A stretch of DNA of 43,899 nt from Rhodospirillaceae bacterium (GTDB lineage: Bacteria; Pseudomonadota; Alphaproteobacteria; Rhodospirillales; JABHCV01), in NCBI GenBank assembly GCA_013204045.1, contig JABMOQ010000059.1, positions 1 to 43,899 of the forward strand, read 5' to 3'. Of this stretch, positions 32,206 through 34,299 are shown in pieces. How positions within the stretch are numbered: the first letter of the stretch is position 1; the number at the start of each line of letters is the position of its first letter. Position numbers and translations under genes: made by a program. The notes under the pieces were generated by a model that saw only the letters and a program-made list of their open reading frames with translations, did no database searches and was not told where the DNA came from.

Positions 32206-33114
32206 TCATGGGGCAACCTTGTGCGGGCCGATACGAAGACGGCTCTCGCGGTACCATACGTAAATGCCACTGCTGATAATCACGCCCGCCCCGCCCGCCG
32301 TCCAGATGCTTGGCACGTCGCCAAAAACCAGATACCCCCAGACAATAGCGGCGACCACCTGGGAATAGGTGAAAGGAGCAAGCATGGAGGCTTCCGCCGA
32401 GTGAAAAGCTTTGACCAACAAGTAATGCCCGATGGCTCCGGCCATCCCCATGGTCACCATCAATCCCCATTGGGCGGGTGTCAGGGCTTGCCAGTAAAAC
32501 GGGGCCAGGGCTGACAGAGCCAGCGCCCCCACCGCCGTCGAATAAAAGGTGGTCGAGTCCGGGTTATCCTTGCTGCGAATAATCCGTGTCATCACCATGT
32601 ATATGGCAAGCAGAACCGCCGTCGCCAACGGTAACAGGGCCGACCAGCCGAGCACGCCGGAGCCGGGCCGGGCCACCAGCAGGACGCCAATAAAGGCAAA
32701 TATCACGGCGGCCAAGCGCCGTGGACCCACATGCTCACCGAGGAACAGACCGGAAAGAGCGGTGACCAGCACCGGGGCCAGGAACTGAATGGCCGCCGCG
32801 TCCCCCAATGGCATTCGCGTGATCGCCACATACATGAATGAGGTTGCCCCGAACAGGGCAGCGGCACGTATGAATTGCAGGCCCGGGCTGCGGGCGCGCA
32901 GGAAATGGAGCGAGCGCCTTTTCCCGGCATAGAGGGCGAAGGTAATCACCGTGTGAAAAAAATACCGCCCCCAGAGGACCAGCAGGACGGGGACCTCGAT
33001 GGCCAAATGCTTGGCGGTGGCGTCCATGCCCGCCAGAACACCGCCGGTGACGATGATCATCACGATGGCCAAGGCCGGAGCAATCTGGGCGTGGGGATGG
33101 GGGAGAATCGTCAT
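32206..33114 (-). CDS. EamA/DMT family transporter (302 aa)
   Basis: A ten-helix drug/metabolite transporter with two EamA halves. The first half has GGVLAGMDATAKHLAIEVPV, LLVLWGRYFFHTV and TRMPLGDAAAIQFLAPVLVT; the second has YLLVKAFHSAEASMLAPFTY and QVVAAIVWGYLVFGDVP. These are standard family phrases. I choose the ATG at 33114 because the upstream part is not like the family. Substrates of such exporters are amino acids or small metabolites; nothing here narrows it. It diverges from the riboswitch-led small gene. Confidence 0.87.
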   Translation of the reverse strand: MTILPHPHAQIAPALAIVMIIVTGGVLAGMDATAKHLAIEVPVLLVLWGRYFFHTVITFALYAGKRRSLHFLRARSPGLQFIRAAALFGATSFMYVAITRMPLGDAAAIQFLAPVLVTALSGLFLGEHVGPRRLAAVIFAFIGVLLVARPGSGVLGWSALLPLATAVLLAIYMVMTRIIRSKDNPDSTTFYSTAVGALALSALAPFYWQALTPAQWGLMVTMGMAGAIGHYLLVKAFHSAEASMLAPFTYSQVVAAIVWGYLVFGDVPSIWTAGGAGVIISSGIYVWYRESRLRIGPHKVAP

Positions 33115-33263
33115 TATAAAATGTATAACACACCCGACATGCCATACCACCTACGCCATGCCCCCCTGAAACCCTTGTCAGCCGGGCATTATAAGGCCCT
33201 GTGATTGGCGTCACTGCGGGCCCAGGGTGATCGCGATACGCTAACACAATCAATGGGCGCGCA

Positions 33264-33302
33264 TGACCGGGCGTTGTTTCCTCCCTTAGAAAGGCCCGGT
33301 CA
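33264..33302 (+). promoter_or_regulatory. 9-bp hairpin just upstream of the c-di-GMP aptamer
   Basis: TGACCGGGC (33264-33272) pairs perfectly with GCCCGGTCA (33294-33302), and TTTC and GAAA inside the loop can extend the stem. It ends four bases before the aptamer's P1 strand. It may insulate or stabilise the leader RNA; it lacks a T tract, so it is not a typical terminator. Confidence 0.45.
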
Positions 33303-33306
33303 GGTG

Positions 33307-33395
33307 TTTTCCACGATAACGGCAAACCGGCGGAAACGTCGGGACGCAAAGCCACCGGCCTAAGGCAATCGCTAGGGCAGCGGGGTTACCGAAAA
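33307..33395 (+). promoter_or_regulatory. Cyclic di-GMP-I (GEMM-I) riboswitch
   Basis: The leader carries the conserved GEMM-I blocks in order: GGCAAACC (33321-33328), a stem capped by a GAAA tetraloop at 33333-33336, GGGACGCAAAGCC (33341-33353), the receptor-side CCGGCCTAAG, and GCGGGGTTACCG (33380-33391). These match the Vc2 aptamer of Vibrio very closely. The GG before CAAACC is kept, whereas cGAMP-type variants carry an A at that contact, so c-di-GMP is the likely ligand. The P1 closing helix can pair TTTTC (33307-33311) with GAAAA (33391-33395); the latter overlaps the first two bases of the AAGGAG ribosome site (33394-33399), so ligand binding may reduce translation. The switch direction is inferred. 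Confidence 0.9.
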
Positions 33396-33406
33396 GGAGA
33401 AATGCC

Positions 33407-33565
33407 ATGGTTGTCAGTTTTCATACCATGATTCAGGACTCTTGGGATGTCTGGAGCGGGCTGTTTTCGCCCCTTCCATACGGCGATCCATATATGGCCT
33501 CTGCCGTGCTGTTGGGGGCCATCGCCTATATCTCAAGGCAGATCTTCGGCAATTATAACGATTGA
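33407..33565 (+). CDS. Riboswitch-controlled small membrane protein (52 aa)
   Basis: An ATG at 33407 with AAGGAG eight bases upstream opens a 52-residue frame that ends at TGA 33565. The N-terminal half is aromatic-rich (SFHTMIQDSWDVWSGLF), then SPLPYGDP, and a single hydrophobic helix, MASAVLLGAIAYISRQIF, at residues 30-47. It looks like a one-span inner-membrane protein with a short polar end (GNYND). Position between the GEMM-I aptamer and an intrinsic terminator makes it the sole visible target of c-di-GMP control here. I know of no family for it. It may influence motility, attachment or signalling, but this is inference from the regulator alone. Confidence 0.75.
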   Translation: MVVSFHTMIQDSWDVWSGLFSPLPYGDPYMASAVLLGAIAYISRQIFGNYND

Positions 33566-33578
33566 CCGAAGTTCGGTT

Positions 33579-33618
33579 AAAAAGGGCCTCTCGCGGTATC
33601 TCGCGAGGGCCCTTTTTT
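33579..33618 (+). terminator. Intrinsic terminator of the riboswitch gene
   Basis: AAAAAGGGCC...TCTCGCG and CGCGAGGGCCCTTTTTT form a long GC-rich stem with one bulge and a run of six T. It begins 14 bases after the small protein's stop, so the riboswitch and the 52-codon gene form a self-contained unit. Confidence 0.9.
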
Positions 33619-33681
33619 GTTGTTTGCCGCCTCCCCGCAAGCTGTTGACAAGCGGGGTTTTAAGGGTATATTGCCGCCTCG

Positions 33682-33771
33682 ATTCAAGGGTCCCCGAGGA
33701 AGTGTCTCCGGGCCCTTGATGCATATGGTTTCTGCGGGTCCCGGCACTGGCCGGATTCCCGCCCCTTGAAT
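33682..33771 (+). promoter_or_regulatory. rplU leader with two mutually exclusive helices
   Basis: ATTCAAGGG (33682-33690) can pair with CCCTTGAAT (33763-33771), nine bases just before the rplU start; its inner seven bases can instead pair with CCCTTGA at 33713-33719. A further hairpin (GCGGG at 33734-33738 with CCCGC at 33758-33762) lies between. This looks like an autoregulatory ribosomal-protein leader. L21 binding is inferred. Confidence 0.5.
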
Positions 33772-33780
33772 GGAATGGTC

Positions 33781-34299
33781 ATGTTCGCAGTCATTAAAAC
33801 CGGCGGAAAACAATATAAAGTCGCCGAAAACGACGTCATTAAAGTCGAGAAACTGGCAGGCATCGCCGGCGCCACGATTGAACTCGGCGACGTGCTGATG
33901 CTGGCTGAGAAGGGCCAGGCCCCGAAAACCGCCGCCGCCGATCTAGGCAAGGCCGCCGTGTTCGCCGAAGTGCTGGAACAGGGCCGTGCCGCCAAGATCA
34001 TCGTTTTCAAGAAAAAGCGCCGTCATAATTACCGCCGCAAGGCCGGCCATCGTCAGGATCAGACGGTTCTGCGTATCACCGGAATCAGCGCCACCGGCAC
34101 CAAGCCTGCCGCGGTCAAGAAGGCGGCCCCGAAGAAAGAGATCGCCGAGGTTAAGGAAGCGGCGCCAAAGAAGGCAGCGGCTAAAAAAGCCGCGCCGAAG
34201 AAGGCAGCAGCTAAAAAAGCCGCGCCCAAGAAGGCAGCGGCTAAAAAAGCAGCCCCCAAGAAAGCGGCTGCAAAAGCCAAGTCGAAGTCGAAGGAGTAG
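33781..34299 (+). CDS. rplU: 50S ribosomal protein L21 with Lys/Ala-rich tail (172 aa)
   Basis: The first 103 residues are standard L21: [28 protein letters not shown], then [20 protein letters not shown] and TVLRITGI. The protein binds 23S rRNA in the large subunit. The remaining 69 residues form a histone-H1-like tail of Ala, Lys and Pro, encoded by a 30-base tandem repeat. Longer L21 tails exist in other alphaproteobacteria; here the repeat is almost perfect at DNA level. I choose the ATG at 33781, where L21 homology starts; an in-frame TTG at 33766 lies inside the leader helix. It is followed by rpmA after six bases. Confidence 0.97.
34171..34278 (+). repeat. 30-bp tandem repeat coding the L21 tail
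   Basis: Three 30-base units begin at 34171, 34201 and 34231, each coding [10 protein letters not shown], followed by a partial fourth. Units differ by only a few bases, mostly silent, which suggests recent expansion by slippage or unequal exchange. Confidence 0.9.

Follow-up and report, generated by a model that had tools for sequence, protein, structure and literature searches.

The window analysed here, 43,899 nucleotides of a Rhodospirillaceae bacterium (contig JABMOQ010000059.1), contains what looks like a c-di-GMP-I riboswitch placed in front of a single 52-codon gene, which raises the question of what this switch controls, in which direction, and whether the arrangement recurs among relatives. 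The RF01051 (c-di-GMP-I / GEMM-I) covariance model matches positions 33311-33393 on the forward strand with 83.9 bits (gathering score 35; E 3.1e-15; model positions 1-87, all 87 covered), and this is the sole match in the 2.68-Mb genome in a search to E 0.001. The aptamer has a GAAA loop and the conserved blocks of GEMM-I, in agreement with the class assigned by an earlier sequence-only reading of this DNA. Its two ligand-contact bases, placed by motif position, are G and C; we take these places to be G20 and C92 of Vc2, which separate the c-di-GMP form from the cGAMP variant. Among the 55 aptamers found in the order, the first place is G in 50, C in one, T in one and A in none (three not placed), and the second is C in 45, T in eight and A in two. 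By these sequence criteria the window aptamer is a riboswitch of the c-di-GMP form, and binding of that ligand is predicted. The features of the unit are as follows.

33201..33214, + strand: CRP-type palindrome GTGATTGGCGTCAC (TGTGATTGGCGTCACTG including flanks), an exact GTGA-N6-TCAC; the same site stands upstream of 39 of 55 aptamers.
33237..33242, + strand: predicted -10 element TACGCT; TAnnnT at +36 from the palindrome, as in 31 of 39 loci.
33265..33301, + strand: upstream leader hairpin, from the leader fold; similar hairpins by eye in some relatives.
33307..33312, + strand: 5' strand of P1 (UUUUCC), a potential partner of 33396-33401 (GGAGAA); from the sequence and duplex energies.
33311..33393, + strand: c-di-GMP-I (GEMM-I) riboswitch aptamer, RF01051, 83.9 bits; G and C at the presumed Vc2 G20 and C92 positions.
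33394..33399, + strand: AAGGAG, the ribosome binding site, which falls within the 3' strand of P1; from the sequence, with relatives placing theirs alike.
33407..33565, + strand: 52-residue predicted membrane protein of the WxxW-PLPYGDPY family; homologues behind aptamers, profile matches in 41 of 317 genomes, two-helix model.
33588..33617, + strand: intrinsic terminator, from the sequence; hairpin 33588-33609, then CCCTTTTTTG.

The small gene appears to stand alone. The gene upstream of the unit lies on the opposite strand, a terminator follows the frame, and scanning 33100-33800 for the sigma-70 consensus gives the next gene a separate promoter-like site at 33645-33672. The unit is therefore monocistronic, in line with the sequence-only reading. 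The interval given there began at 33264 and does contain the aptamer, but 33264-33310 lies mostly outside it and comprises a separate leader hairpin (arms GACCGGGC at 33265-33272 and GCCCGGTC at 33294-33301 in the leader fold) together with the 5' strand of P1. The same reading had correctly listed aptamer, frame and terminator but missed the CRP-type site and promoter upstream, which distinguish these units more than anything else. A second ATG, at 33402, is out of frame with the 52-codon frame. The next gene (33781-34299 of the window; rplU, ribosomal protein L21, by eye) carries a long Lys/Ala/Pro-rich repeated tail.

The 52-codon frame is taken to be real because it belongs to a conserved family with the core W..W...F.PLPYGDPY.A. 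Alignment of 17 members shows M1, W13, F20, P24, G26 and P28 to be invariant, and some members are longer, ending in a K.MN-like motif. Three close pairs, which differ by few changes, give dN/dS ratios of 0.89, 1.14 and 1.86, and a fourth pair gives 0.23; the coding argument therefore rests on conservation of the core over long distances. The predicted model of the protein has helices at residues 3-20 and 28-51 with the PLPYGDP loop between them (mean pLDDT 74, pTM 0.43), and from its sequence the product is predicted to be a single-pass membrane protein of a new family. Searches of Pfam, NCBIfam and PDB sequences returned no accepted relative, and none of the 17 members matched Flp pilin (PF04964) at E up to 0.1. 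Weak matches of single members, such as that of one of 27 members to the NCBIfam model 'putative transporter small subunit' (E 0.0048), look like chance and were rejected as a database identity.

Neither the aptamer nor the protein is peculiar to this genome. The sequence-only reading had suggested that alphaproteobacterial examples of the aptamer class might be few, which did not hold up: RF01051 occurs in 43 of 317 genomes searched in the order, a number that includes the window's genome, at 55 places of which one scores below the gathering threshold. In the class it occurs in 33 of 385 sampled genomes, the window's again counted. A homologue search behind other GEMM-I aptamers, proposed in the same reading, found the frame conserved, with an intact relative directly behind 21 of the order's 55 aptamers, in 11 genera and 5 families; when targets are grouped by eye, this is the commonest class. 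Behind one further aptamer (G297:C37) there is a frameshifted copy of the family, and in G053 an aptamer is accompanied by a PilZ-like frame, with no small protein behind it. A profile of the family (E up to 0.01) matches 41 of the order's 317 genomes, with a few of the matches weak or partial, and 9 of 250 genomes sampled from the class (window's included). Outside the order, G382 has a member directly behind an aptamer and G594 probably has one likewise. Neither protein nor aptamer occurs in the five further genomes of the family to which the window belongs. Seven loci (L204-L210) encode distant relatives with a WDP(W/Y/L)GA-like core in place of GDPYxA; the regions upstream of these have neither the aptamer motif nor an exact palindrome, and three (L204, L206 and L207) lie beside TetR-like genes by eye.

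What the aptamers of the order share, beyond their own fold, is a CRP-type palindrome. Within 220 nt upstream, GTGA-N6-TCAC is exact at 39 of the 55 aptamers, has one mismatch at 10 and is found in neither form at six; only exact palindromes are counted here, since single-mismatch matches also occur in 4 to 12% of shuffles. The six include the second aptamer of G309, which shares its operon with a first aptamer that does have the palindrome, and the aptamer of G297:C37, a locus that begins near a contig end. Exact palindromes span 17 of the 20 aptamer-bearing genera of the order, and none was found in the 220 nt upstream of 204 other genes at the aptamer loci (gene calls in these scans being crude longest-frame calls). 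The spacing is equally specific, as GTGA-Nx-TCAC with x of 2-5, 7, 8 or 10 occurs at no locus and with x of 9 or 11 at one each, the reversed order at N6 occurs at none and other test arrangements at no more than two, while random 220-nt windows of the aptamer loci contain the palindrome in 30 of 9703 cases. In the wider class the exact palindrome was found at 6 of 29 aptamer loci outside the order (the 29 with loci, out of 55 class-level places beyond the window's genome) against 39 of 55 within it, so the pairing of palindrome and aptamer is commoner in the window's order. Seven loci (L117, L118, L123-L126 and L129) have another GTGA-N6-TCAC close to the start of the DUF6166 gene next door; it encodes VTSVTV-like residues there and may be either a coding coincidence or a second operator.

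The palindrome is also held at a fixed distance from a promoter-like element. In 31 of the 39 loci a TAnnnT hexamer starts exactly 36 nt downstream of the palindrome's first base, and every other offset is found in at most five. Assuming the usual 7 nt between the -10 element and the transcription start, this spacing would centre the palindrome at -41.5, the position of a class II activator; in the window the start is predicted at about 33249, and there, as in those 31 loci, the operator lies near -41.5 of the predicted start. The consensus scan of 33100-33800 matched no sigma-70 promoter for the 52-codon unit, and a class II activator would account for the absence of a -35 box.

The activator of the palindrome is probably a cAMP-type CRP encoded in the same genome. 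TGTGAYN4RTCAC occurs at 12 distinct sites there, that of the unit included, against none for the pattern read backwards. By Pfam, the genes near these sites include a CRP-like gene, one for a GGDEF protein and the divergent TadG-like and TPR genes of the Tad locus; response-regulator genes are also recognisable there by eye. Five regulators of the PF13545 type are above the cut-off, one of them inside the Tad locus, and GTGA half-sites go, as a rule, with an RExxxR recognition helix. The CRP-like protein on contig C36 carries TRETVAR as its recognition helix and GEL..RSA in the nucleotide-binding domain, which match E. coli CRP. The other four helices read do not match: three are of the form PE(T/S)xSR, resembling FNR, and the Tad-locus protein has TDKQSVAEA. 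These observations, together with six PF00211 cyclase domains in the genome, make a cAMP-type CRP the best candidate.

Downstream of the promoter, the position of the ribosome site suggests how c-di-GMP might act. As the sequence-only reading had noticed, the site overlaps P1, with AAGGAG (33394-33399) in its 3' strand. This layout is general: in 50 of the 55 loci of the order a GGA-like core is found where the aptamer ends, and an ATG lies nearby; in 39 of the 50 the distance between aptamer end and ATG is 10-14 nt. In a partner-swap test comparing duplex energies of own and swapped P1 strands, permutations did as well in 3 of 5000 cases for the other loci of the order (a clear weakening of P1 by swapping), in 358 of 5000 for the small-protein loci (a marginal result) and in 3354 of 5000 for the class loci (no weakening); four of the 55 (G053, G056:C93, G089 and G297:C37) were set aside. 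Ensembles calculated in the ligand-free state for 48 leaders (setting aside the same four with G073, G293 and G294) have the core paired with the 5' strand of P1 only 6% of the time on average, and free 45% of the time. Since the core is so rarely paired with that strand in the absence of ligand, P1 stabilised by the ligand should mask the ribosome site, and repression of small-protein translation by c-di-GMP is the sign we favour. The targets of sister switches point the same way, as flagellin, Flp pilin, TadG-like proteins and, in the class, Peptidase_C93 fit a programme of low c-di-GMP.

The window leader itself gives reason to weigh the opposite sign, under which c-di-GMP would raise synthesis because the 5' flank of the aptamer pairs across the start codon in the free state and binding releases it. 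The minimum-energy fold of this leader (fold z -1.43) places the start codon in a helix with that flank (GAUAACGGC with GCCAUGGUUGUC), even without P1, and in the ligand-free ensemble the start codon is 4% free and the ribosome site 25% free; with its start codon thus buried in an alternative helix, the window's own sign could differ from that of its relatives. By eye, however, those relatives do not keep the downstream half of the helix, for which reason it was set aside as the main mechanism; P1 is itself able to hold the ribosome site, and flagellin and Peptidase_C93 as sister-switch targets fit repression better, so that we consider activation by the ligand unlikely. Similarly unlikely, in our judgement, is that the palindrome serves another regulator of the CRP/FNR family, for instance one of the c-di-GMP-binding Clp type, in which case one signal would act at both levels. 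Five PF13545 regulators in the genome, one within the Tad locus, leave room for this, but among the five helices read RExxxR occurs only in the C36 protein. That the frame is untranslated and the aptamer controls only the stability or the end of a small RNA is very improbable: the unit is short and has a terminator, as such an RNA might, and Vc2 reportedly acts through stability on a putative small RNA upstream, but the protein core is kept over at least six families and the ribosome site and start are similarly spaced among relatives. Repression of translation, under a promoter activated by a cAMP-type CRP, is the reading with which we continue; palindrome, promoter and aptamer together suggest that the small gene is gated twice, at transcription by the CRP family and at translation by c-di-GMP.

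The two gates do not always occur together. In one family (f21) ten genomes have the protein; the order search found no aptamer in any of them, and a cmscan of seven of these loci at E up to 0.1 likewise found no aptamer, so the idea that the whole protein family is tied to aptamers was rejected. The exact palindrome is nevertheless present in all ten, with TAnnnT at +36 in eight. Over the order, 13 of 18 aptamer-less places have the palindrome (f21, G007, G012 and G040) and five do not (G028, G196, G221, and second copies in G054 and G058); these 18 are what remains of 21 profile-matched places, neither intact copies behind an aptamer nor the frameshifted copy, once G067 and G068, with aptamer-like sequence, and G053:C109, with a weak partial match, are set aside. 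In G067 and G068 the palindrome is followed, by eye, by apparently decayed aptamer-like sequence that was not among the matches of the order search. Since the palindrome persists without the aptamer, it goes with the gene no less than with the aptamer. The aptamer may then have been added later, as a second gate, to an existing CRP-type promoter; equally possible is that it was lost in f21.

Individual loci vary further. One without an aptamer (L187) has two exact palindromes with no -10 element at +36, two (L188 and L189) have neither aptamer nor exact palindrome, and L190 has just 38 bases of upstream sequence. At L189 the frame next to the small frame looks MucR/Ros-like by eye. The second small-protein copies of G058 (L217) and G054 (L218), which lack the palindrome, have AT-rich DNA upstream.

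As to what the protein does, several neighbourhoods point to the Tad (Flp) pilus. In all ten f21 genomes a CpaB match is encoded on the opposite strand, 1.1-1.3 kb away from the small protein (six loci read), and in G309 (contig C36, L043) an aptamer, a Flp pilin gene, a second aptamer, the small protein and a TadG-like gene form one operon. In the window's genome the palindrome pattern also occurs between divergent TadG-like and TPR genes (the latter TadD-like by eye), and in five relatives a PilZ gene lies next to the small protein, downstream. On these grounds a role in Tad function or surface contact can be put forward tentatively. A strictly Tad-only role was rejected, as 17 of the 41 protein-bearing genomes have no CpaB match; with a match in 24 of 41 protein-bearing genomes against 117 of 276 others, and with f21 a single clade, such a role is unsupported. 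The chance that the protein has no link to a pilus or to surface contact at all, being for example a membrane-stress or transporter-partner microprotein made at low c-di-GMP, is close to even in our view. The 17 genomes lacking CpaB fit this, as do the unrelated genes, by eye, on either side of the unit at most small-protein loci listed, and the single weak transporter-subunit match among 27 members; against it stand the Tad neighbourhood in all ten f21 genomes and G309, the PilZ gene behind the small protein in five relatives, and the operator common to the unit and to Tad genes in the window's genome.

Other targets behind the aptamers widen the picture. Those sampled by Pfam are flagellin, Flp pilin and TadG-like proteins and, in the class, Peptidase_C93, of the LapG type. 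Peptidase_C93 genes lie directly behind c-di-GMP-I aptamers at L146, L153 and L157, assigned by Pfam at L153 and by likeness at the others. A membrane protein of about 151 residues, containing ..ALEVAAVAVKNYxDENPPxxGW.. by eye, recurs at eight loci (L053, L054, L061, L065, L076, L078, L079 and L081), and the one member compared with Pfam (L061) gave no match. ParA-like ATPases follow aptamers inside and outside the order (L070, L077, L130, L132, L136, L137, L139, L140, L144 and L148), some of them 80-130 nt behind; these were assigned by eye, with L139 tested by Pfam.

In the model that we propose, a CRP-family activator at the class II operator would turn on transcription of the small-protein unit, and c-di-GMP, by stabilising P1, would mask the ribosome site and lower translation. 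On this model the protein is expected when an engaged activator coincides with low c-di-GMP, corresponding to a motile or first-contact state; that it would act at the membrane together with the Tad (Flp) pilus, or with a related system of surface contact, is the weakest step. Taken whole, with its parts read from sequence and its regulation inferred from them, this combination of CRP-type activation, c-di-GMP repression and a membrane protein in Tad function or surface contact seems to us somewhat more probable than its negation. A broader form, in which most aptamer targets of the order (flagellin, Flp pilin, the ParA-like ATPase, the 151-residue protein and, most often, the WxxW-PLPYGDPY microprotein) would use a class II CRP promoter followed by a c-di-GMP filter at translation, with the microprotein as a dedicated membrane effector in surface contact, we regard as evenly balanced.

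Among known systems, the nearest precedent for the sign is the Vc2 switch of Vibrio cholerae tfoY. The Vc2 study reportedly describes masking of a ribosome-binding site distant from the aptamer, whereas here the site lies within P1. Translation of tfoY is restricted with c-di-GMP bound, an OFF precedent, in the excerpted text of one report (PMC7371385), while the excerpt of one review calls Vc2 a gene-on switch (PMC12564702). For the pairing with CRP, the closest case is V. cholerae gbpA, for which the excerpted report gives a predicted CRP site upstream of the GEMM-I element Vc1 and an inhibition by c-di-GMP that is independent of Vc1 (PMC4545359). As far as that excerpt extends, gbpA represents one gene in one species, in contrast to the pairing here, which is found with fixed geometry in 17 of 20 aptamer-bearing genera. 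Among the titles and abstract openings listed in searches of open-licence PMC papers, none concerned a GEMM-I riboswitch with such a protein or a lineage-wide CRP pairing, and the excerpt of a review on c-di-GMP and cAMP contains no such pairing (PMC11139211). With Tad/Flp pilus loci these units share a neighbourhood in f21 and G309 and an operator in the window's genome, but the protein itself has no Flp pilin match. Compared with GEMM-I riboswitches in general (RF01051), the aptamer is the same; the target differs in being an unnamed family of small membrane proteins rather than a known motility or adhesion gene, and a CRP-type class II operator is predicted upstream at 39 of the 55 loci of the order. 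The riboswitch class is thus known, and the target family and the standing CRP-aptamer pairing appear to be new. If the model is right, a protein of about 50 residues with a strongly conserved core would be a new c-di-GMP output at the membrane, and two global second-messenger systems would act one after the other, first on the promoter and then on the mRNA, in an arrangement repeated across an order rather than confined to a single gene.
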